Positions 12,701 to 27,569 of a DNA stretch of 64,000 nucleotides are shown piece by piece; position 1 is the stretch's first letter, and every line of letters begins with the position of its first letter. The position numbers and the translations under genes were made by a program. Source of the DNA: Dictyoglomus turgidum DSM 6724 (lineage in GTDB: Bacteria > Dictyoglomota > Dictyoglomia > Dictyoglomales > Dictyoglomaceae); assembly GCF_000021645.1 (NCBI RefSeq), contig NC_011661.1, positions 1,768,723 to 1,832,722 of the forward strand. The letters run 5' to 3'. Under the pieces are notes generated by a model. The model was not told where the DNA came from. It saw only the letters and a program-made list of their open reading frames with translations, and made no database searches.

Positions 12701-14857
12701 TTGAGAAAGAGGATTGGAGTCATAGTAAACTACTTATATGAGGAATACCAATTAAAGGTAATCTCTGGAATAATTAATACTTCCAGAAAGTATAATATTG
12801 ATCTTTTCATCTTTGTGGGAGGAAATCTAAATTATGATATAGAAAACCTACAGAGAAATAAAATATATCAGTTGATAAACTATAAAGATATTGATGGATT
12901 AATAATTCTTGGTTTAGTCCTTGGATACAACATACCAAAAGAAAAGATTATTGGATTCTATAAAAATTTTAGTGATATACCTACAGTAAGCATTGGGCTT
13001 ACCGTAGAAAACTTTCCTTCTATTACCATTGATAACTCAAAGGGCTTTATTAACCTACTTGATCACCTTGTAAAAGACCATAAATACAAAAATTTTACCT
13101 TCGTAACAGGACCTCTAAACAATGATGAGGCAAAAGAGAGATATGAGATCTTTTTGAAAATAATGAGAGAGAACAATATAGAGATAAAAGATGACCATAT
13201 TTACGAAGGGGATTTCTCAAAGTTTTCTGGGATTAATGCAGTAAGAACTTTTTTGGACGAGAGAAAGTTAAAGCCAGATGTAATTGTCTTTTCCAACGAC
13301 ATGATGGCTATAGGTGGAATAGAAGAACTTAAAAGAAGAAAGATAAAAATTCCAGAAGATATTGCAATAACCGGCTTTGATAATATTGAGGAATCCTATT
13401 TTATAACCCCTTCTCTTACTACCGTAAACCAGCCCCTTTACGAGCTTGGAGAAAAAGCATTAGAGATCTGCTTATCTATAATCTTAGGAGAAAAAGTAAA
13501 AGAGAATATTGTCCTCCCCACAAGATTAATAATAAGAGAATCTTGTGGACATAAAGAAGAAATTTTTAATAAAGCAATTCCACCATCGGAAAAGAAAATA
13601 GTAAATATTACTGAGGCTAAAATTCTAAAAAATAAATTTTTAGAATTTCTAACAGAAGATTCTCAAATTAAAAAGGAAAACTATGAGTTGTTCTCTAAAA
13701 TTTATGATCTATTTTTTACCTCCCTATTTGAGAAACGACAAATCTTTTTAGAAAAAATTCATGAGTACTTGGAAAAAAATCTCTCCACCACAGAAGAGTT
13801 AAAAGAAATAGTGTTTTTAATTGACTCCTTTACTAAAACATATTTAGAAAAAGATTTAAAGAAAGATGCAGAAACTCTAATCCTGAAAGCAGAAAGAATA
13901 ATAAGTACTTATTCAGAAAAGTTATTAAGATATGAGCAATACAAAACTAACGAAGAAATAGAACTTTTAGGATATATTGGTTCTGATCTACTTTCAAGTT
14001 TTAGAATGGAGGATATTATAGAAAGGATATCTGCAAGACTTCCAGAGTTAAATATCAACAGTTTTTACCTTGTATTCACCGATGAAAACCTAAAAGAGAA
14101 AAAACTTATATTTGCCCACTTAAGAGATGAAAATGTTCGAGAAGAAATAAAACTTAGCTTTGATGAAATAATACCTAAAAAACTTTATCCTAAGGAAAGA
14201 AAAGAACTTATAGTAAAACCTCTTTATTTTCAAGAAAACTTTTTTGGATATATGGTATTGGAGTATGGTCCCAAGAGAGGTGTAATATATGAAATTTTAA
14301 GATCTCAGATTAGTGCAGCCATTCAAGGAGCAAAAATCTTCGAAGAACTAAACCGATTAGCCATTACTGACCCACTAACCCAACTTTTTAATAGGAGATA
14401 TATTGAAGAGGAACTTAGAAAAGAGATAGAAAGATCCAAAAGATATTCAAGACCATTGTCGGTTATGGTGCTCGATCTTGATAATTTCAAAATTATAAAT
14501 GACATCTTGGGTCATCAATACGGAGATGAAGTACTAAAGAAGATTGGAGAAAATTTGAAGAAATCTTGTAGAAAAGTAGACACCGTAGGAAGATTTGGAG
14601 GAGACGAATTTGTAATAATCCTGCCAGAAACGAATCTTGAAAAGAGTATAAAAGTTGCAAATAAAATAATAAAAAACCTTGAAAAAATGGAGATAAAATT
14701 TCCCAACGGTGAAAAAATATACATAAGTATAAGTATTGGTATAGCATCATATCCGGAAACCAGTAAAGATCCAGAAAAAATTTTAAGTCTTGCTGATTCA
14801 GCAATGTATAATGCAAAAAGATTAGGAGGAAAGCAATATTCTATTGCAAGTTTTTAA
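12701..14857 (+). CDS. LacI-type ligand-binding domain fused to diguanylate cyclase
   Basis: 718 residues from a TTG start with AAAAGGGG upstream. Residues 1-285 are a LacI/PBP1-type sugar-binding domain (TVNQPLYELGEKALE, ending IIRESCGH), but the protein begins directly at its first beta strand (MRKRIGVIVNYLYEEYQ): there is no helix-turn-helix, signal peptide or membrane helix, so it is cytoplasmic. A helical linker and a GAF-like region (about 420-545) lead to a GGDEF domain with GGDEF at 633-637 and an intact inhibitory RxxD site (RKVD) five residues before it. It should make c-di-GMP in response to a small molecule, perhaps a sugar. It is paralogous to the next gene. Confidence 0.9.
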   Translation: MRKRIGVIVNYLYEEYQLKVISGIINTSRKYNIDLFIFVGGNLNYDIENLQRNKIYQLINYKDIDGLIILGLVLGYNIPKEKIIGFYKNFSDIPTVSIGLTVENFPSITIDNSKGFINLLDHLVKDHKYKNFTFVTGPLNNDEAKERYEIFLKIMRENNIEIKDDHIYEGDFSKFSGINAVRTFLDERKLKPDVIVFSNDMMAIGGIEELKRRKIKIPEDIAITGFDNIEESYFITPSLTTVNQPLYELGEKALEICLSIILGEKVKENIVLPTRLIIRESCGHKEEIFNKAIPPSEKKIVNITEAKILKNKFLEFLTEDSQIKKENYELFSKIYDLFFTSLFEKRQIFLEKIHEYLEKNLSTTEELKEIVFLIDSFTKTYLEKDLKKDAETLILKAERIISTYSEKLLRYEQYKTNEEIELLGYIGSDLLSSFRMEDIIERISARLPELNINSFYLVFTDENLKEKKLIFAHLRDENVREEIKLSFDEIIPKKLYPKERKELIVKPLYFQENFFGYMVLEYGPKRGVIYEILRSQISAAIQGAKIFEELNRLAITDPLTQLFNRRYIEEELRKEIERSKRYSRPLSVMVLDLDNFKIINDILGHQYGDEVLKKIGENLKKSCRKVDTVGRFGGDEFVIILPETNLEKSIKVANKIIKNLEKMEIKFPNGEKIYISISIGIASYPETSKDPEKILSLADSAMYNAKRLGGKQYSIASF

Positions 14858-14897
14858 AGATTAAAATTAAATATCAAAGCGGGGGAGGATGAATTTA

Positions 14898-17800
14898 ATG
14901 CGGAAAAATATTGGAATATTCGTAGACAATTTAAATGTATATCAATGGAATATTTTAAAGGGAATTTTCTCATATGCAGAGAGAAAGGATATAAATCTCT
15001 ATTGTATTGTAGGAAAAACCTTAAACTCTCCCTTTGATTATGAAAAATGCGCCAATAAAATCTATTATTTGATCTCTAAAAAAGATATTGATGGACTGAT
15101 AATGTTCACCTCTGCTTTAAGTTCTCACATCCCTAATGAAGAAACCATAAAATTCTGCAAACTATTCTCTGAAAATATACCTACTGTAAGTATTGGACTT
15201 CCCTTAGAAAAGGTTCCAAGCTTTATTGTTGACAATATTAATGGTTTCAAAGAACTTTTGATCCATCTCATTGAAGACCATGGTTATACAAAGTTTGCTT
15301 TTATAACTGGGCCCATGGATAATATTGAAGCCAGAATAAGATATGAAACTTTTATGGAGGCTTTGTCTCAATATGATATAAAGGTACCAGAAGATCACAT
15401 ATATTATGGAGATTTTCTACATGAATCAGGGAAAAAGGCTATAAAAACCTTTTTTGATGAGAGAAAGATAAAACCCGAAGTTATTATTTCATCCAATGAT
15501 GACATGGCTCTTTCAGCTATTGAAGAACTCAAAAAAAGAAAATTTCTTATACCAGAAGATATTAAAATTACTGGATTTGACGATGTAGAAGAAGCAAGCT
15601 TTATAACTCCACCTCTCACTACGGTAAGACAACCCCTTTTTGAGATGGGCGAAAAAGCTATAGAGACCTTAGTAAATATTATAGAGGGAAGAGAAATAGA
15701 AAATATGGAACCTCTTCCCACTAAATTAATTATAAGGGAATCTTGCGGATGTAAATATTCAGCGCTGGACAGAGCAAAGGTGGAGCCTAAAAAAGTAAAC
15801 ATAAGCCTCTCCTGGGAGAAATTAGAGGACTTAAAAGAGGAATTTGTAAAAGTGGCAAGTAAAGTCCAGTATGAATTAGAAAAAAATGAGTTAATAGAAC
15901 TTTACAAAAGCTTTCTTACCAGTTTAAGAGAGAAAAATCCAGACTATTTTATCAATTATCTCCAGAAACTCCTTAAGACAAGGGAATTAATCACCCCTCA
16001 AATAGGATATTTCCAAGATTACATTTCCACATTAAGAAGATTTGTCATATATTATGTGGATAAAGATGATTTGGCCTTTGCAGAAAATCTTTGGCATCAA
16101 GCAAGGGTCATAATAAGCGATTATGCAGAAAGGTCTCAGGGATATAAAAAAGCTCAATTAGAAGAAGATTTTCAAAATCTGACAGGTTTTGGAATAAATC
16201 TAATTTCTTCCTTTAATAAAGATGCTATTGTAAATTATCTAAAAGATAATTTACCTGATCTTGGTATAAAGAGCTTCTATATTGTAGAGCAGGAAAATTC
16301 TCAGAATAAAAAGAATTTACTTTTTGGCTATTCAGAAAATGCAGAACATAAAGATATAAAATTTTCAGACGAATTTATACCTAAAAGAATTCTCCCTAAA
16401 AGGAGATTTACATATATTATAGAACCCCTATATTTCCAAGATACATTTTTTGGATATGCTCTTTTTGAACTTGGTATCCCACATAGATTTTTTTATGAGA
16501 TTCTAAGAACCCAAATAAGTGCAGGAATCCAGGGAGCAAAATTATTTGAAGAAAGAAGAGCATATGAAGATCAGCTAATAGAACATATCCGAGAGTTATC
16601 AATTCTAAATGAGATTGGAAATACCATAACCTCCTCCATCGAACTAGATCTAATATGGGATCTTGTCTCAAGCAAAATAGCAAATCTATTTGATTATGAT
16701 GCTTTTTACTTAGCTCTTCTAAATGGAAATGAAAATATCTTAGATATAAAAGTGAAAAAACTTAAAAAGACTCATGAAAAGTTAACTAATGCAGACAAAA
16801 ACATAATAATAGAGTCAATAAAAAATAATAACCCTATGCTTATAAAGAAAGAAAACAAAAACATTTTATGTGTACCATTAATTACAGGAAGAGGAGTAAA
16901 AGGTGCCATAGTCCTTAAACATGAAAATGATGTATACACCGAGAAGACAGTAAACTTTTTAAAAGCTATTGCCAATTATATTTCTATAGCTATTGAAAAT
17001 GCCTTTCTATTTGAAGAGATAAAGAAATTAGCAACCATAGATCCTCTTACAGGAGTTCTAAATAGGAGAGCTTTAGAGGAAGGGTTTAACAAAGATGTAG
17101 AAAGGGCAAAAAGATACAATAGACCCCTTTCTGCAATAGTAATAGATGTGGACAATTTTAAGTTATTTAATGATACCTATGGACACACTTTTGGAGACCA
17201 AGTACTAAGAGAGTTAGCGAAAATTTTAAAAAATTCATGTAGAAAAACGGACTTAGTAGGAAGATATGGAGGAGATGAATTCGCAATAATCTTACCAGAG
17301 ACCAATTTAGAGGGGGCTATTAAACTTGCAGAAAGATTATTAAAGAGTATTAGAAACTTAACCATTACAACTCCTACGAACAACAAAATCCCTATAAAAA
17401 TAAGTATGGGAATAGCATCTTATCCTGATGATACTAATGAACCAGAGAAACTATTGACCCTTGCAGATATAGCCATGTACAAAGCTAAAACTTCAGGAGG
17501 AGATTCTTTTAGTACCATATCTTGCTCCTACAAAACTCCCATGTCCAAAGAAGCCCCTAAATTTGATGAATTTCTTGGTTTAATTAATGCCATTGATAAC
17601 AAGGACAATTACACTTATACTCATTGTAACGAAGTAGCCAAATATGCAAGAAAAATTGGAGAAAAATTAGGACTTTCTAAAGAAGATCTTGAGATATTAG
17701 AGCTTGCAGGAAAACTTCATGATATTGGAAAAATTGGAATACCCTTCGAAATACTTAAAAAACCAGGACCTCTAACCGATGAGGAATGGAAGATTATTAA

Positions 17801-18119
17801 GGAACATCCAAGATTAGGCTACCTTATATTAAACCAACTTCCCAAAATGGAAAAACTCCTTCAGGCAGTACTTTATCACCATGAGAGATATGATGGAAAA
17901 GGATATCCCCAAAGCCTTCAGGGAAAGGAAATTCCTCTTCTTGCAAGGATTATCGCAGTAGCTGATGCCTACTCTGCAATGAAATCCAATAGACCTTACA
18001 GAAAAGGCCTTTCTAAGAAAGAGATCATTAATGAAATAAAGAAAAATATGGGCAAACAATTTGATCCAGAGATTGCCCAATTATTTTTAGAATTATTAGA
18101 AAAAGGAGAAATTGAGTGA
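14898..18119 (+). CDS. LacI-type ligand-binding, GAF, GGDEF and HD-GYP protein
   Basis: 1073-residue c-di-GMP enzyme. ATG at 14889 directly abuts the GGGGGAGG site; ATG at 14898 has 9-nt spacing and gives MRKNIGIFVDN, matching the neighbour. Order: LacI-type sugar-binding domain (1-285), helical linker, two GAF-like regions (about 420-545 and 560-710), GGDEF domain (GGDEF at 791-795, RKTD inhibitory site just before), HD-GYP domain (H941-D942, HHERYDGKGYP with GYP at 1002-1004). Both synthase and phosphodiesterase motifs look intact. There are no membrane segments. It sits 40 bases after the paralog, probably in one transcript. Which activity dominates cannot be read from sequence. Confidence 0.9.
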   Translation: MRKNIGIFVDNLNVYQWNILKGIFSYAERKDINLYCIVGKTLNSPFDYEKCANKIYYLISKKDIDGLIMFTSALSSHIPNEETIKFCKLFSENIPTVSIGLPLEKVPSFIVDNINGFKELLIHLIEDHGYTKFAFITGPMDNIEARIRYETFMEALSQYDIKVPEDHIYYGDFLHESGKKAIKTFFDERKIKPEVIISSNDDMALSAIEELKKRKFLIPEDIKITGFDDVEEASFITPPLTTVRQPLFEMGEKAIETLVNIIEGREIENMEPLPTKLIIRESCGCKYSALDRAKVEPKKVNISLSWEKLEDLKEEFVKVASKVQYELEKNELIELYKSFLTSLREKNPDYFINYLQKLLKTRELITPQIGYFQDYISTLRRFVIYYVDKDDLAFAENLWHQARVIISDYAERSQGYKKAQLEEDFQNLTGFGINLISSFNKDAIVNYLKDNLPDLGIKSFYIVEQENSQNKKNLLFGYSENAEHKDIKFSDEFIPKRILPKRRFTYIIEPLYFQDTFFGYALFELGIPHRFFYEILRTQISAGIQGAKLFEERRAYEDQLIEHIRELSILNEIGNTITSSIELDLIWDLVSSKIANLFDYDAFYLALLNGNENILDIKVKKLKKTHEKLTNADKNIIIESIKNNNPMLIKKENKNILCVPLITGRGVKGAIVLKHENDVYTEKTVNFLKAIANYISIAIENAFLFEEIKKLATIDPLTGVLNRRALEEGFNKDVERAKRYNRPLSAIVIDVDNFKLFNDTYGHTFGDQVLRELAKILKNSCRKTDLVGRYGGDEFAIILPETNLEGAIKLAERLLKSIRNLTITTPTNNKIPIKISMGIASYPDDTNEPEKLLTLADIAMYKAKTSGGDSFSTISCSYKTPMSKEAPKFDEFLGLINAIDNKDNYTYTHCNEVAKYARKIGEKLGLSKEDLEILELAGKLHDIGKIGIPFEILKKPGPLTDEEWKIIKEHPRLGYLILNQLPKMEKLLQAVLYHHERYDGKGYPQSLQGKEIPLLARIIAVADAYSAMKSNRPYRKGLSKKEIINEIKKNMGKQFDPEIAQLFLELLEKGEIE

Positions 18120-19401: not shown

Positions 19402-21078
19402 ATGCATAGGAGTGATGCTGTTAAAAAAGGGATAGAAAAAGCACCTCATAGATCTTTGTTTTATGCCATGGGATATACAAAGGATGAATTAGAAAAACCT
19501 CTTATAGGTGTAGTAAATTCTGGAAATGAAATGATTCCTGGACATATCCATTTAGATATAATCACAGAAGCAGTAAAATATGGTATTTTGGAAGCAGGAG
19601 GTACTCCTTTAGAATTTAGGGTTATAGGAATATGTGATGGAATTGCCATGGGACATAAAGGGATGAAGTATTCCCTTGCCAGCAGAGAATTAATTGCAGA
19701 CTCTATTGAAGCTATGGTAGAGGCGTATCAACTTGATGGAATAATACTTATAACCAATTGTGATAAAATCGTCCCTGGAATGTTGATGGCAGCAGCAAGG
19801 CTTAATCTACCCTCTCTTATATTGAGTGGCGGTCCTATGCTTGCAGGAAGATGGAGAGGAAAAGATGTAGATCTTATAAGTGTCTTTGAAGGAATAGGAC
19901 AAGTAAAAGCAGGAAATTTGAGAGAAGAAGACCTCTATGAATTGGAACAGTATGCTTGCCCTGGATGTGGTTCATGTTCAGGAATGTTTACTGCGAACAC
20001 CATGAACTGCCTTTCAGAAGCTCTTGGTATAGCTCTACCCTACAATGGGACACTACCTGCTGCTTATGATGGTATGAGAAAAAGACTTTCAAAAGAAGCT
20101 GGAAAAAGAATAGTCCAATTAGTAAAAGATAATATAAGGGCTCGCGATATTTTAACAAGATCTGCATTTGAAAATGCCATTGCAGTTGATATGGCTCTTG
20201 GGGGATCTACAAATACAGTACTTCACCTTCTTGCAATTGCAAAAGAAGCAAAAGTGGACCTACCTCTTGACACTTTCCAAAAAATTAACGAGAGAACCCC
20301 AAATATATGTAAGTTAAGCCCAGCTTCTTCTCAACATATTCAAGACCTTCATGAGGCGGGAGGAATACCCGCAGTATTAAAAGAACTTCTCAAAGGGAAC
20401 CTAATAGATCCAAATGCCTTAACAGTATCAGGAAAAACCATAGGAGAAATAGCAGAAAGTGCAGTAATAAGAGACAGAAACATCATAAGGCCACTGGAAG
20501 AACCTTATGCAAAAGACGGCGGTCTTGCTATATTGTATGGAAATCTTGCACCAGAAGGTGCTGTAGTTAAAAAATCCGCAGTCTCACCTAAGATGTTAAA
20601 GCATGAAGGACCCGCAAGGGTATTTAACAGCGAGGAGGAAGCTATAAAAGAAATATATGCTGGTAATATTAAAAAAGGAGATATAGTAGTGATAAGATAC
20701 GAGGGACCTAAGGGTGGGCCTGGAATGAGAGAAATGCTCGGACCCACATCAGCCCTTGCTGGAATGGGACTTGATGAAGATGTAGCCCTAATAACCGATG
20801 GCAGATTCTCAGGAGGAAGTAGAGGAGCTGCTATTGGACATATTTCTCCTGAGGCTGCCGAAGGAGGTCCCATAGCCCTTCTCAAAGATGGCGATATTGT
20901 TGAGATAGATATCCCCAATAGGACTTTAAATGTGAAATTAAGTAACGAGGAGCTTGAAAAGAGAAAGAAAGAATGGAAGCCCATTAAAAGAGATATTGAG
21001 TTTAGTTATTTAAGAAGATACGCAGCTTTGGTTACATCTGCAAGCAAGGGTGCAGTTTTAAAAGACATATATGAATAA
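19402..21078 (+). CDS. ilvD: Dihydroxy-acid dehydratase
   Basis: Converts 2,3-dihydroxy-isovalerate (or methylvalerate) to the 2-oxo acid, the third step of valine and isoleucine synthesis; an Fe-S enzyme. 558 residues, the usual IlvD length. Motifs: [19 protein letters not shown] (C78), [12 protein letters not shown] (C120), [24 protein letters not shown] (C186, C189, C192), [14 protein letters not shown], and [10 protein letters not shown] near the end. AAAAGGAGG precedes ATG. No other branched-chain genes are nearby; it heads an operon with two MetE-like genes and a mannosidase. A sugar-acid dehydratase role is less likely from the motifs. Confidence 0.9.
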
Positions 21079-21093: not shown

Positions 21094-22071
21094 ATGATTA
21101 TCACAGTAGTAGATCACTATCCTAAAATACCTAATCCACCTAAGGAGCCAAAACTAAGAAAAGCTATTCATGCTTATGACCAAGGCAAAATTACAAAAGA
21201 AGAATTAGAAAAAATATTTGATGAGGTAACCCAAGAAGTTATACAAGAACAGATTTCGGCAGGAGTAGAGTTAATAACCGATGGACAAATAAGATGGGAG
21301 GATGGACAAAGCTATATTGCTAAAAAACTTGACGGAGCTCAAATCGGAGGACTTATAAGGTATTTTGATAACAATACTTATTATAGACAGCCAGTAATTG
21401 TGGGTGAAATAAAATGGAAAGAACCAATTGTTATAGAAGACTGGAAAAAAGCTCAAAAATGGGCAGGAAACATTCCAGTAAAAGCAGTACTTACAGGACC
21501 ATACACTATGGCAAGACTTAGCAGAGATGAGCACTACAAAAACTTTGAAAAACTTGTAAAAGCCTATACCAATGCCCTTATAGAAGAAACTAAACTTCTT
21601 GAAGAAAACAAGGTAGAATACCTTCAATTTAATGAACCATCTATTCAATACTATCCTGAAGATATAGACCTTTTCATAGATGTATATAAAGAAATGAGAA
21701 AATATTTTTCAGGAAATTTAGCTATATACACTTATTTTCATACAGTAATTCCCCTCAAAAACAGAATTAAAGATCTTCCAATAGACACTTTTGGCATTGA
21801 TTTTGTATCCAGGAAAGAAAACTTTGAGATACTAAAAGAATTTCCTAAAAATCTTGCCTTAGGTTATGGAATAGTGGATGCAAGAAATACAAAATTAGAA
21901 ACTCCAGAACAAATCGCAGATCTTATAAAACAAGCTTTACAATGGATATCAGAAGACAAACTTTTTGTAAATCCAAGCTGTGGTCTTGAATACCTACCCA
22001 GAGAGAGAGCATATGATAAACTGGTAAATCTTGCAAAAGGAGTAAATTTAGTAAGAGGTGAGAAAAGATGA
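21094..22071 (+). CDS. MetE-like barrel protein without zinc site
   Basis: 325-residue homolog of cobalamin-independent methionine synthase, covering a single barrel. It keeps ELITDGQIRWED, VLTGPYTMARLS, FNEPSIQYYPED and NPSCGLEYLPRERA (C296). Where the downstream paralog has the zinc ligands H212, C214 and E236, this protein has YTYF and D236, and the QIDEPA aspartate is asparagine (FNEPS). It therefore cannot bind zinc in the standard way and is probably a non-catalytic or folate-side partner, like the N-terminal half of MetE or the separate N-type proteins of some archaea (from memory). Its stop overlaps the next start by 4 bp. Confidence 0.8.
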   Translation: MIITVVDHYPKIPNPPKEPKLRKAIHAYDQGKITKEELEKIFDEVTQEVIQEQISAGVELITDGQIRWEDGQSYIAKKLDGAQIGGLIRYFDNNTYYRQPVIVGEIKWKEPIVIEDWKKAQKWAGNIPVKAVLTGPYTMARLSRDEHYKNFEKLVKAYTNALIEETKLLEENKVEYLQFNEPSIQYYPEDIDLFIDVYKEMRKYFSGNLAIYTYFHTVIPLKNRIKDLPIDTFGIDFVSRKENFEILKEFPKNLALGYGIVDARNTKLETPEQIADLIKQALQWISEDKLFVNPSCGLEYLPRERAYDKLVNLAKGVNLVRGEKR

Positions 22072-23096
22072 AAGAGATAAAACTACCCATATTACCTACC
22101 ACCAGTGTGGGAAGTTTTCCTAAGCCAGATTATTTGGTGAAGGCAAGAAACCAATACTCAAGAGGTTTAATCCCTTATTCTACTCTCCACGAATTAGAAC
22201 TAAAAGCCACAGAAGAGGTTATAAAACTTCAAGAGGAGATAGGAATAGACATATTGGTACATGGAGAAATGGAAAGAGGCGACATGGCAACCTACTTTGC
22301 CGAAAATTTAGAAGGATTTACCATAAGTGGCCTTGTAAGGTCCTATGGAAATAGATATTACAAAAAACCTATTGTGATAGGAAAAATAAGAAGACCAAAA
22401 CCTATAACTGTAGAAATGTTTAAATATGCCCAGAGTCTAACTAAAAAGCCTGTAAAGGGGATGTTAACAGGACCTTACACCATAGCAGACTGGTCCTTTA
22501 ACGAATATTATGACAATAAAAGGGATTTAGTCCTTGACCTTGCAGAAGTGATAAATCAGGAAGCTTTAGACTTAGAAAAGGCGGGAGCCTTATTTGTACA
22601 GATAGATGAACCTGCTGTTCCAACCCATCCTGAGGAGATCGAGATTGCAAAGGAAGCCTTTAAAATTACTACAAGAGGTTTAAGAAGTTTCCTTATAACC
22701 CATATTTGTTACGGTGATTTTAGACCTATATGGAAAGAAGTAGTAAATTTTCCTGTACATCAATTTGATCTTGAATTCACTAATAATGCTGACAAACTTT
22801 ATCCTCTTATAGAAAAAGAGGGTTTTCCAGAAGAAAAATATGTTGCCGTTGGGGTTATTGATGTACACTCCCACAGAATAGAAACAGTAGATGAGATAAA
22901 AGCAAGAATAAAAGAAGCCTTAAAACATTTTAGCCCAGAACAGGTATTTATTGATCCCGATTGTGGCTTAAAGACAAGAACCTGGGAAGAAGCAAAAGCA
23001 AAGTTGGAAAATATGGTTAAAGCGGTAATGGAGGTAAGAGAAGAATTAATAAAACAAGGATATCCTTCTGAAATCACTATAAGATTAGAGCTATGA
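22068..23096 (+). CDS. MetE-like methionine synthase, catalytic barrel
   Basis: 342-residue barrel matching the C-terminal catalytic half of MetE. Zinc ligands are complete: H212 and C214 (THICYGDF), E236 (FDLEFTNN) and C299 (DPDCGLKTR), with spacing close to the E. coli H641/C643/E665/C726 set. D180 (QIDEPA) matches the homocysteine-binding aspartate. It should methylate homocysteine; the methyl donor (methyltetrahydrofolate, another folate or a corrinoid protein) is open because the usual N-terminal half is separate. Start ATGA overlaps the previous stop, and its own stop overlaps the mannosidase start, so three genes are coupled. Confidence 0.83.
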   Translation: MKEIKLPILPTTSVGSFPKPDYLVKARNQYSRGLIPYSTLHELELKATEEVIKLQEEIGIDILVHGEMERGDMATYFAENLEGFTISGLVRSYGNRYYKKPIVIGKIRRPKPITVEMFKYAQSLTKKPVKGMLTGPYTIADWSFNEYYDNKRDLVLDLAEVINQEALDLEKAGALFVQIDEPAVPTHPEEIEIAKEAFKITTRGLRSFLITHICYGDFRPIWKEVVNFPVHQFDLEFTNNADKLYPLIEKEGFPEEKYVAVGVIDVHSHRIETVDEIKARIKEALKHFSPEQVFIDPDCGLKTRTWEEAKAKLENMVKAVMEVREELIKQGYPSEITIRLEL

Positions 23097-26000
23097 GCGA
23101 AAAATATCTATTAGAACAATGGAATTTTTGGTTAGATGAACTTTATAGTTACTCTATTCTCAGAAAGTTTATTCTTGATGAGTGGGGATTTACAGATAGA
23201 AGGGAAGATATTGAAACTTTATCAAATTTAGAGGTTATAAAACTTGGGGAGAGATGGAAGAAGATTTCTCTCCCCGTATACTTTATAAAAAGAGTTAAGT
23301 TAAGTAGAGAGGTGTCGGCTCTCCCTCTTTATATACATCTTGATGTAGGGGGAGAGGCATTTTTATTTTTAAACAATATCCCCTACGCTGGTATAAATCC
23401 CTATCACCAAGATCATAAAATTCCCTACAAAGAAGAATATCTCTTTTTAATAGAGGCAGTTCCCAAAGGGCTTTTTGGGCAAAATCAAAAAAACCCTATT
23501 TTCAAAGAAGCCTATATCTATCAGAAAGATGAAGAATTATATCGTGCATGGCTTACTTTTTATCTCATAAGAGAGTTTGGACTTGCCTTAGAAGACACAA
23601 ATAAAGAACTCCAAAAGAAAATCCAAAATATTTTAGAGGAGACCCTTGGAAAAATTGATTTAATAAGCTCTTATTCTGAGTTTATGCTAAGAATTCAAAA
23701 CACCAAATTTACTATGGACCTTATAAATGGACTTTGGAGCCAACCTGATTTTGAAAATATTGAAAAACCTATACCTGAGGAGCTAAAAAAATCTATTACT
23801 CATTATTCTCAATTGGCATTAAAAAGGCTCTCTGAATTAAAAAATGAATATCCTAACATGGGAGAACTCTATGCCATAGGGCATGCTCATATAGATTATG
23901 CTTGGCTATGGCCTCGAGAAGAGACCATAAGAAAGGCACAAAGGACCTTTTCTACTGTTCTCACTCTTATGAAGAACTATTCAGACTTTGTCTTTCTTCA
24001 AAGTAGTGCCCAAATTTATCAAGATATAAAAGAAAAAAATAAATATCTTTTTGAGAAGATAAAAGAAAAAGCAAAAGAAGAAAGATGGATAATTGAGGGA
24101 GGAACATGGGTAGAAAATGATTGTCAACTTCCTTCTGGAGAATCCTTTGTAAGGCAATTTCTCTATGCCCAAAAATTTTTTGAGAAAGAATTTGGGATAA
24201 AATGTAAATTAGCATGGCTTCCTGATACTTTTGGCTTTAACCCTAACTTTCCTCAAATCCTAAAAAAGTCAGGTATTAAATACTTTGCAACCACTAAACT
24301 AACTTGGAATGAAACCAATACATTCCCCTATGATCTTTTCTTATGGAAAGGAATAGATGGAACAAAGATTGTTGCTCACATCTTTGGAAAACACTGCGGC
24401 TATAACGGAACCACAGATATTAAAGAGATTATAAAAACCTTTATGGAATTTCAACAAAAAGACTTATCAAACTCTCTTATCTACTCCTATGGATATGGAG
24501 ATGGCGGTGGTGGACCTACTTTTGAAATGATTGAAAGGCTCAATCTTTTAAAAGATTTTCCCTTAATCCCTAAAATAAGAAAGGAAAATCCTATTAAGTT
24601 TTTAGAAAAAATAAATGAAGAAAAACTTCCTATATATTATGGAGATCTTTATTTAGAGCTTCATAGAGGAACCTTTACTACACAAGGAAGGATAAAAAGA
24701 CTCCACAGAATAGCAGAAAACCACCTAATAACTATTGAGAGTTTAGCTACCCTATTTAATGCTCTTGAAAATACTTTATATCCTAAGGAAGAAATAGACA
24801 AGCAATGGAAAAAACTTTTAAGGAATGAATTTCATGATATTCTTCCAGGATCCTCCATAAGAGAAGTCTATAAAGATACAGAAAAAGAACTTAAAGAAAT
24901 CCTTGATTTTAATATCAATTTAACCTCAAAAGATAAGGGAGATTTCCTTCTCATATATAATCCAACTTCCTTTCCTCAAGAATTAAATTTTGAATTAGAT
25001 TCTAATCAAGATTTGACCCTAGTATACAAAAATAAAGCTTTGCCCTCTCAAAAAACTTATGACAAAAAAATGTTAGTTTACTCGAGAGACGTATTAATTG
25101 AGCCTTTCAGTTTTATAACCCTTCAAGTTTCAAAAGAGGAAACCTACGAAAAAATAAGTACTGATCTCATTATCGGAGAAGATCATTTAGAAAATTCTTT
25201 TCTCAAAGTAAAAATAAATGGAGATGGAACCATAAACGTTTTATATAAAGACTTAAACAGAGAAGTTTTTAAAGAAAGAGGAAATCAAATATTTGCATTT
25301 CCAGACAGACCCAGATATTGGGAAGCATGGGATATACCTTTAGAATATGAAAAATTTGGAAAAGAGATAAAAGACGTAGAAAAAATTGAGATAGTGGAAA
25401 AGGGACCTTTAAGAGCCCAAATAAAAGTTGTAAAAAAATATAAAAGTTCAACAATAACTCAATACTACACTCTCTATGCCTATTCAAAAAGATTAGACAT
25501 TATCAATGAAATTGAATGGCACGAAAGAAGAACTATGCTTAGAGTTTATTTCCCTATAAATATATTTACTCCAATTACTCAATACGAAGTTCCTTATGGA
25601 ATTTATTGGAAACCTGTACACAAAAATACCTCCTGGGAAAAAGCTCAATTTGAAATCCCAGTACAAAGATTTATTGATCTATCCCAAAGAGATTTTGGGG
25701 TAAGTATAATCAACAATGGAAAATATGGTCATAGTATTGACGAAAATATTATAGGAATTACCCTCTTAAGATCTCCTATAACACCTGATTATATGGCAGA
25801 CATAGGTATCCATAACTTTACATACTCTGTTTTTCCTCATTTAGGAGGCTTAGATGAATCAACCTTAAAAGAGGCAGAAGCACTTAACAGACCTTTGTAT
25901 ATTATGGAAATATCTGAAAATAAAGGAGAAAAAAGATTTTTAAGTTGGGATAAAAGAAACGTTATTATTGGAGCGCTTAAAAAATCGGAGGATGAAGAAG

Positions 26001-26191
26001 GAATAATTTTAAGATTTATAGAGTATCTTGGAAAAGAAGAAGAGGTTGATATAAACCTTGATATTCCTATCAAAAAAGTTTATGAAACAAATCTTTTAGA
26101 AGAAATAGAACAAGAAATACCCCAGAAAAACTCTTGTTTTAAATTGCATTTCAGACCCTTTGAAATAAAAACTATTAAAATAATTTATTGA
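23093..26191 (+). CDS. GH38 alpha-mannosidase
   Basis: 1032-residue family 38 alpha-mannosidase, a zinc-dependent retaining glycosidase; no signal peptide, so cytoplasmic. Marks: GHAHIDYAWLWPREETIRK (H266 and D268 as zinc ligands), WLPDTFGFNPNFPQIL (D378, nucleophile), and NEFHDILPGSSIREVYK (third zinc ligand histidine). The rest is the usual C-terminal beta-sandwich region. The ATG overlaps the MetE-like stop by 4 bp. It probably trims mannosides taken up from plant or microbial glycans. The link to ilvD and MetE genes looks like operon packing rather than a pathway. Confidence 0.93.
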   Translation: MSEKYLLEQWNFWLDELYSYSILRKFILDEWGFTDRREDIETLSNLEVIKLGERWKKISLPVYFIKRVKLSREVSALPLYIHLDVGGEAFLFLNNIPYAGINPYHQDHKIPYKEEYLFLIEAVPKGLFGQNQKNPIFKEAYIYQKDEELYRAWLTFYLIREFGLALEDTNKELQKKIQNILEETLGKIDLISSYSEFMLRIQNTKFTMDLINGLWSQPDFENIEKPIPEELKKSITHYSQLALKRLSELKNEYPNMGELYAIGHAHIDYAWLWPREETIRKAQRTFSTVLTLMKNYSDFVFLQSSAQIYQDIKEKNKYLFEKIKEKAKEERWIIEGGTWVENDCQLPSGESFVRQFLYAQKFFEKEFGIKCKLAWLPDTFGFNPNFPQILKKSGIKYFATTKLTWNETNTFPYDLFLWKGIDGTKIVAHIFGKHCGYNGTTDIKEIIKTFMEFQQKDLSNSLIYSYGYGDGGGGPTFEMIERLNLLKDFPLIPKIRKENPIKFLEKINEEKLPIYYGDLYLELHRGTFTTQGRIKRLHRIAENHLITIESLATLFNALENTLYPKEEIDKQWKKLLRNEFHDILPGSSIREVYKDTEKELKEILDFNINLTSKDKGDFLLIYNPTSFPQELNFELDSNQDLTLVYKNKALPSQKTYDKKMLVYSRDVLIEPFSFITLQVSKEETYEKISTDLIIGEDHLENSFLKVKINGDGTINVLYKDLNREVFKERGNQIFAFPDRPRYWEAWDIPLEYEKFGKEIKDVEKIEIVEKGPLRAQIKVVKKYKSSTITQYYTLYAYSKRLDIINEIEWHERRTMLRVYFPINIFTPITQYEVPYGIYWKPVHKNTSWEKAQFEIPVQRFIDLSQRDFGVSIINNGKYGHSIDENIIGITLLRSPITPDYMADIGIHNFTYSVFPHLGGLDESTLKEAEALNRPLYIMEISENKGEKRFLSWDKRNVIIGALKKSEDEEGIILRFIEYLGKEEEVDINLDIPIKKVYETNLLEEIEQEIPQKNSCFKLHFRPFEIKTIKIIY

Positions 26192-27569
26192 ATTACGTAA
26201 ACTTTTGTGGTATAAAAATCAAAAGAATTTTCCCTTTAATCTTTTTCACTTTTTTAGAAGTTATTTTTGTAAGTGTTGTAAAGTTGAAGGTATAATTTTC
26301 CAAAATGGCAATACATATAAACTAATACCCAATATAAAATACAAGGACATCCCCCAAAATCTCCTTACTCAAAAGAACATATATTACAAAGATAATTACT
26401 TTTATGTTTATACTTTAACGAAAAGCTCACTAAACTCAGTAGAGCTAATATTTAGTTTTGACATAAAGGATTTAAGAAACAAAATTATAGGTTCTGCTGT
26501 TTCTTTTTCTTTGCCTCTTCTTACTCTTCAAATATTCTTTACTATGCTTTTCTACTATTCCATGAAATATACCTACGTGAAACCCCTTGAAAAATTAGCC
26601 GAACAAAATAAATAGAAAAGACGAAATCGGAGATTTAACCCGAAAAATCATAGATAAGGCTACTTCAACAAAAAGGAAGCAATCCAAGTATACTTCTTCA
26701 GTGTATCTCTGACTTAAATATGGCAAAAAAGCCTGTGGACGTAGCAAGAGTAGTGGCTAAACTTTGTAATGGAAGAATTTTATCAAGATTTTCAAATAAT
26801 TAGTAGAGAAGAAGCAAAAGAGATAATTGATATACTTAGTTTTGGTAATGATAATAGTTTTTATACTTCAAAAGATATAAAACTATTTGCTTATAATATC
26901 CCAGAAGATTATCTTCTCATACCTTTAAAGAGAAATGAAAAATTATACGGATTTGTGGGATTATCAATGCCCTCTTCCTATGACTTACAGGACACTATAC
27001 TTTCGATCCTGTATCATCTTACTATATCTCTTGAAAACTCTTTTATTTATGAACACACTGAAAAGCTTTCCTGTATTGATCCTCTTACAGGAGTATACAA
27101 TAAGAGAAAAATTGATGAGATCTTAGAAAATGAGATAAATAGAGCACTAAGATATAACCGTCCTTTGAGTCTACTGTTCATAGATATTGACCATTTTAAA
27201 AACATCAATGATATGTATGGACATATAATAGGAGATAATTTTTTAAAGGAACTTGCTCTTTTTCTCCTACGCAACACAAGAAACATAGACAGTATAGGTA
27301 GATTTGGTGGAGAGGAATTTGTTTGTATATTACCTGAAACAGACCTTGATTCAGCTTATAAAGTAGGAGAAAAGCTAAGAATTAGATGGAACATAGAAAG
27401 GCATATAGTACCTATAAATGTTCAAGAAAAAACAGGAACTTTAAGTATAGGGATAGCAAATTCACCTATTCACTCTCAAAACCCCAGAGAACTTTTAATA
27501 TTAGCAGACAATGCCCTTTACAAAGCTAAAAGGGAAAGAAATAAAACATCAATCTTTGAAAAATTCTAA
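26188..27569 (+). pseudogene. Frameshifted membrane sensor diguanylate cyclase
   Basis: Remains of a transmembrane GGDEF protein spread over three frames. From a TTG at 26188 a hydrophobic helix (IFPLIFFTFLEVIFVSVV) runs to a stop near 26290. A frame change continues through a short outer region, a second membrane helix and a HAMP start (YVKPLEKLAEQN) to a stop at 26615. HAMP continues in another frame (DEIGDLTRKIIDKA). A fragment MAKKPVDVARVVAKLCN lies in the next frame, and 26769-27569 carries a GAF-like piece and a full GGDEF domain (GGEEF with RNID inhibitory site). There are four frame changes. The 266-residue 3' frame has no good ribosome-binding site; residual activity is possible but unlikely. 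Confidence 0.82.

Follow-up and report, generated by a model that had tools for sequence, protein, structure and literature searches.

A probable split, two-subunit MetE encoded by an overlapping gene pair in Dictyoglomus turgidum

What is a barrel that lacks a zinc site doing beside an intact methionine synthase barrel, in a gene that overlaps its partner? This question is raised by two genes in the window analyzed here, a stretch of 64,000 nucleotides from Dictyoglomus turgidum DSM 6724 (NC_011661.1, forward strand, 1,768,723 to 1,832,722; positions below are those of the window unless the genome is named). The upstream gene (21094..22071, + strand) encodes 325 amino acids and the downstream gene (22068..23096, + strand) encodes 342, with the stop of the first and the start of the second sharing 4 bp (22068..22071, + strand). 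These ORF coordinates agree exactly with those given in an earlier sequence-only reading of this DNA, and the overlap suggests that translation of the two genes is coupled. That reading proposed either a two-protein form of MetE or a folate-independent methionine synthase with a degenerate partner that binds a methyl donor. Phylogeny, fold, common motifs, and genome context all support the former, and we consider it highly probable that the two genes encode a cobalamin-independent methionine synthase (MetE) split into two subunits: an N subunit, which is orthologous to the N-terminal barrel of fused MetE and has neither a zinc nor a homocysteine site, and a C, or catalytic, subunit. Immediately 5' of the N gene is an ilvD-like dihydroxy-acid dehydratase gene (19402..21078, + strand; Pfam PF00920/PF24877), which is also found 5' of the N gene in the Dictyoglomaceae loci L006-L010 and probably belongs to the same operon as the pair. 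A GH38 alpha-mannosidase ORF (23093..26191, + strand) overlaps the C-subunit stop by 4 bp and is a neighbor, outside the enzyme. Near this GH38 gene, GGDEF proteins are encoded at 12701-18119 and 26769-27569, two of which carry LacI-type periplasmic-binding domains (one also HD), while the third is GGDEF alone.

The two-gene arrangement recurs well beyond Dictyoglomus turgidum. A locus scan based on patterns taken from 9 N subunits, 6 of them from Dictyoglomaceae, led to 206 confirmed N-subunit relatives, the best 80 of which were taken as loci; nearly all are MAGs, among which some misbinning is possible (L050 is a suspect). In 74 of these best 80 of 206 loci, the N gene is followed on its own strand by a C-type ORF, sometimes truncated at the contig end, and the window pair shows the same adjacency, which is usual, if not strict, for the subunit genes of split MetE. 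Among the six loci without a C-type ORF, the N gene lies at or near a contig end in L099, L108, and L115, and none was present within the examined stretch in L112, L117, and L119. Spacing was taken from a rough script that took the start codon closest to the VGS motif and left 6 of the 74 C starts unplaced; of the 68 placed pairs, 22 overlap, 36 are separated by 0-100 bases, and 10 are further apart, to a maximum of 544 bases. With this gene order repeated in 74 of the 80 loci and best Pfam E-values of 1.5e-32 and 1.2e-81 for the two window proteins, the pair is beyond what chance would produce. Of the 80 loci, NCBI ranks place 71 in the bacteria (37 in Chloroflexota) and 9 in the archaea, counts that do not amount to a census, as the scan was keyed to query-like patterns and the best 80 of 206 were taken.

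The zinc and homocysteine residues are found in the second barrel. The sequence-only reading had listed H212, C214, E236, C299, and D180 there, and each was confirmed; H212, C214, E236, and C299 are the zinc ligands, and the homocysteine residues are S16, E67, and D180; H267 is present too. The C subunit also passes the NCBIfam PRK04326 methionine synthase equivalog cut-off (463.9 vs 406 bits), and by NCBIfam, residues, and fold alike it is a catalytic single barrel with the zinc and homocysteine residues of MetE, as a split MetE has. For residue counts in split C subunits, 6 of the 74 ORFs were left out as lying at contig edges and L066 was unreadable at most columns, giving 68 readable sequences. 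C643 is Cys in 67 of these, the exception being L087, which has an insert there. As a separate observation, the zinc-ligand Glu (E. coli column 665) is Ala in 21 of the 68 (L059, L060, L084, and L089 are examples), with the His and both Cys retained. These 21 sequences comprise 8 from Chloroflexota, 4 from Armatimonadota, 4 from 'ANGP1', 2 from Bacillota, 1 from Rokubacteria, and 2 unplaced, and they form a naturally occurring version of this zinc site that has three protein ligands.

In the first barrel, the positions of the zinc His and Cys are occupied by Y212 and Y214, with F215 next, D236 replaces the Glu, C296 is retained, and N180 replaces D180. The sequence-only reading was accurate for D236, C296, and N180 and had Tyr or Phe at the His-Cys site, where both residues are in fact Tyr and the Phe comes after. 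Its broader claim, that one barrel has lost its zinc site, is correct in that the site is absent, but the same absence is normal for the N-barrel of MetE. The N-terminal barrel of Thermotoga maritima MetE has been described as a duplicate whose zinc and homocysteine sites are obliterated (Pejchal & Ludwig 2004, PMC539065). It has Tyr232 in place of the zinc Cys, Asp253, Asn199 within an NEPA motif, and Cys309, which is kept in most sequences (PMC539065), and the first barrel of the window shows the same set of features. Counts for split N subunits cover 78 sequences, the window and 77 of the 80 loci, with 3 contig-edge ORFs left out. Those for fused MetE cover 13 of 16 examined, since a motif filter placed L134, L136, and L140 outside the main counts; these three retain the same folate and zinc residues as the other fused MetE. 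D236 is invariant in the 78 split N subunits, and Asp stands at the lost Glu ligand in 13/13 fused N-barrels too, for which reason the lost zinc Glu was dropped as a special point. N180 and C296 are not diagnostic, because both positions vary among the 78 split N subunits, with N in 24, D in 53, and S in 1 at position 180 and Cys in 45 at position 296. Asn122 is found in 78/78 split N subunits and 13/13 fused N-barrels, and R264 in 78/78 and 12/13, respectively; the latter lies in a D-x-R-N motif at 262-265, in which R264-N265 are columns common to N-barrels.

The sequence-only reading had proposed a structure-based comparison with the halves of MetE, and predicted models of the two subunits (pLDDT 95.4 for N and 94.1 for C) place the first barrel with the N half and the second with the C half. 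The best match for the N model was residues 2-362 of Streptococcus mutans MetE (Z 36.7; 2.0 A over 315 residues) and for the C model residues 431-767 of MetE 4qqu (Z 40.8; 1.7 A over 321 residues), and in each of the 22 fused-MetE structures listed, the N model aligned with the N half and the C model with the C half. As the MesD-type single barrel 3rpd tied in both fold lists (Z 35.8 for N and 40.1 for C), fold assigns each subunit to its half of MetE but does not distinguish MetE from a single-barrel relative. The top Foldseek match was T. maritima MetE, reported without ranges, so that it does not tell the halves apart.

Two-protein forms of MetE have a precedent. Split MetE was named by Price, Deutschbauer and Arkin (2021, PMC7857596), who reported it primarily from archaea; the sole bacterium named in the main text of that paper is Sulfobacillus sp. 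hq2, and Dictyoglomus is absent from that main text. Among the matches listed in open-licence PMC literature, it was the only relevant paper on split MetE or PF1268/PF1269, which is no proof of absence. By its published description, Pyrococcus furiosus PF1268/PF1269 is likewise a pair of single-barrel genes, of a kind that tend to lie side by side, with a Meth_synt_1-like member and a catalytic one, and the two proteins are reported to form a complex (PMC7857596); the window pair differs from archaeal split MetE in being bacterial, from the Dictyoglomaceae. In fused MetE, as in E. coli and T. maritima, each half is orthologous to one subunit, with the zinc site in the C half and the obliterated site in the N half, as in the pair, whereas the pair is made of two chains, lacks Arg17, His124, and Glu605, and has a shorter loop following QIDEPA. 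Core MetE and MesA-MesD are single barrels of the same family and size as the C subunit, but the latter is coupled to an adjoining N-barrel gene, which a core MetE does not have, and retains most of the MetE folate contacts. MesD reportedly depends on MesX (DUF1852; Deobald 2020, PMC7005905), a partner protein that belongs to a different Pfam family from the N subunit of the window.

The published survey recognizes an N subunit by a higher score to Meth_synt_1 than to Meth_synt_2 on 'the alignment', with older Pfam versions, and a catalytic subunit by a phmmer score to PF1269 of 200 bits or more, and its authors describe their own split MetE list as incomplete, as the rule misses members (PMC7857596). 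For the window N subunit, Meth_synt_2 scores higher over the whole protein (113.7 vs 99.8) and Meth_synt_1 in the best single alignment (82.1 vs 60.2). The statement that the published N rule rejects this protein was considered and dropped, as it is true only on the whole-protein score. Meth_synt_2 likewise exceeds Meth_synt_1 on the whole-protein score in 7 of 10 other N subunits, and in 6 of those 7 the Meth_synt_2 score comes from one alignment, so that Meth_synt_1 is outscored either way. One genome in the comparison, G027 (matches at C40:1922-2941 and C19:1834-3975), encodes a fused MetE and also carries, on a different contig, a separate open frame of 381 aa that matches the N-terminal half of MetE at model positions 2-373.

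The genome offers no other MetE, as far as profile searches over its single contig of 1,855,560 bases can tell. The pair accounts for its sole PF01717 matches, and no fused MetE, a single chain with both barrels scoring above the TIGR01371 cut-off of 929.95 bits, was found, the best match being the C subunit at 326 bits; nor did the first barrel find a better match to an unrelated activity in Pfam, NCBIfam, or fold comparison. The sequence-only reading had also suggested looking for metH. No MetH folate domain was found, the sole PF00809 (Pterin_bind) gene being dihydropteroate synthase (DHPS), and a profile search found no MetH activation domain in 7/7 genomes of the family, a search that alone cannot exclude a MetH of the T. 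maritima type because it is silent in T. maritima too. The folate pathway, also raised by that reading, is represented by FolE2, FolP, FolK, and FolC (391 bits), together with MetF and a MetV-like protein (DUF5981), beside which lie ORFs that we take to be FolD and formate-THF ligase. From this gene content, folate appears to be both made and methylated in this organism. In the published survey, 106 of 107 genomes with split MetE had no other known methionine synthase (PMC7857596). Other genes of possible relevance were observed in Dictyoglomus. A lone S-methyl_trans protein (PF02574) of 290 aa, a single-domain ORF, is encoded at genome positions 72202-73074; PF02574 is found in 7/7 family genomes, and the best NCBIfam match of this protein is to half of bifunctional PRK08645 (284 bits, against a cut-off of 453). 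At genome positions 742344-747038, genes for a corrinoid protein, a RACo-like activator, an MtaA-like methyltransferase, and HcyBio lie in a row, a cluster that possibly forms a corrinoid-linked homocysteine or methionine route. Either the lone S-methyl_trans protein or this cluster could provide a second route for homocysteine methylation, and the pair, the only MetE found, is perhaps not the sole source of methionine.

The residues that would contact folate, given here in E. coli MetE numbering and compared across 78 split N and 68 readable split C subunits, are for the most part retained or replaced by like residues. On the N subunit, Lys20 and Lys117 are both Arg in 78/78 (R22 and R89 of the window), and on the C subunit, Asp489, Arg515, Trp561, and His694 are retained in 68/68, with D72, R96, and W142 among the folate contacts of the window protein. 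The Lys518 column is Arg in 34, His in 17, Pro in 11, Lys in 5, and Leu in 1, and the next position is Lys in 68/68. The Glu605 that clamps the pterin is absent from all 68, replaced by Thr in 56 (T186 in the window), Val in 8, and Ala in 4; Arg17, which contacts the polyglutamate, is found in 0/78 split N subunits, where the column is varied and holds mostly small residues; and His124, a candidate proton donor, is Tyr in 75 and Phe in 3 of the 78. All three residues are retained in 16/16 fused MetE examined, and because of their absence, a folate donor is less certain here than in fused MetE. The E190 column, near the missing Glu605, is acidic in 68/68 (Glu in 38, Asp in 30), and E190 may stand in for Glu605. 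The methyl donor is most likely methyl-THF, and a methyl pterin has been predicted as the donor of split MetE (Price 2021, PMC7857596).

An independent origin of the first barrel was weighed because, in both NCBIfam and hhalign comparisons, it matched the split C family best (hhalign 546 vs split C and 332 vs the fused N-barrel). These matches would fit an independent duplication of one catalytic barrel, which would make the pair a convergent double barrel. In a 90-row tree, holding the window and 31 of the 80 loci chosen for diversity (32 split pairs) and 13 fused MetE, split and fused N-barrels were separated from split and fused C-barrels with SH-aLRT 100. The same division had 100/100 support in a 32-row tree of the window, 8 loci, and 7 fused MetE, on which AU tests were run under LG+G4 and which carries a warning that long branches meet. 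Forcing split N and split C together on these 32 rows was rejected (AU p=4.6e-5). That tree itself shows neither split C nor split N as a single clade, and constraining either to one clade, which bears on the order of fusion and splitting, was not rejected (p=0.0945 for split C and p=0.0858 for split N). The N-barrel columns Asn122, Asp236, and R264-N265, common to split and fused proteins, also stand against an independent origin, which the tree and AU test rule out to the extent that we give it next to no chance. We attribute the high similarity of the split N and split C profiles to their having diverged less than the two halves of fused MetE. Trees, fold, and residues identify the first barrel as a separate, single-barrel orthologue of the N half of fused MetE and not as some novel degenerate partner.

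This orthology also bears on the second proposal of the sequence-only reading, a folate-independent synthase with a degenerate partner, which is not upheld, given also that most folate contacts are kept or replaced like for like; the absence of Glu605 leaves it some residual room. In its most specific form, the pair would be a core folate-independent synthase that receives methyl groups from a corrinoid protein, and the latter would dock on the first barrel. The pterin-clamping Glu is indeed missing throughout the readable split C subunits, and the genome does encode a corrinoid protein, a RACo-like activator, and an MtaA-like methyltransferase beside a homocysteine-biosynthesis gene. However, that cluster lies well away from the pair (742 kb vs 1,790 kb), the separate S-methyl_trans protein may suit it better, the N subunit groups with MetE N-barrels by trees and fold, and the known core synthases are without an N-barrel (Price 2021, PMC7857596), all of which make this explanation very unlikely. 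That the pair has moved to the methylation of another thiol, with methionine supplied by the lone S-methyl_trans protein, is more improbable still; the presence of the latter in 7/7 family genomes and its half-match to PRK08645 speak for this explanation, but the C subunit retains its residues for homocysteine and zinc and scores over the PRK04326 equivalog cut-off.

A split MetE remains the preferred explanation. Computation shows the orthology and fold match of each subunit to its half of MetE, residue conservation, gene coupling, and folate genes, and finds no fused MetE and no MetH folate or activation domain; the activity of the pair is a prediction. As judged from the conserved residues, the C subunit would hold zinc via His, Cys, Glu, and Cys and activate homocysteine as a zinc thiolate. 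The N subunit would dock opposite it, in the face-to-face arrangement of the two barrels of fused MetE, and close the cleft of this putative complex, and R22 and R89 would supply basic residues for the glutamate tail and pterin of the donor, most likely a 5-methyl-THF polyglutamate produced through MetF/MetV and FolC. A more ambitious proposal, that split MetE is a distinct class, widespread in bacteria and archaea, with its own donor site, marked by the replaced Glu605, Arg17, and His124 and by Arg at both contact Lys positions, and perhaps a different donor or binding mode, and that fused MetE arose by a single later fusion, strikes us as unlikely. The zinc-less barrel beside an intact one represents a known architecture, that of split MetE, rather than a new enzyme. 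Split MetE is present in many bacterial contigs (71 of the best 80 of 206 loci), where an earlier survey named mostly archaea, and a filter of the published type would miss 6 of the 10 other N subunits, in which a single Meth_synt_2 alignment outscores Meth_synt_1. The family-wide absence of the usual pterin clamp also poses a testable question, namely what the methyl donor of the two-protein form is.
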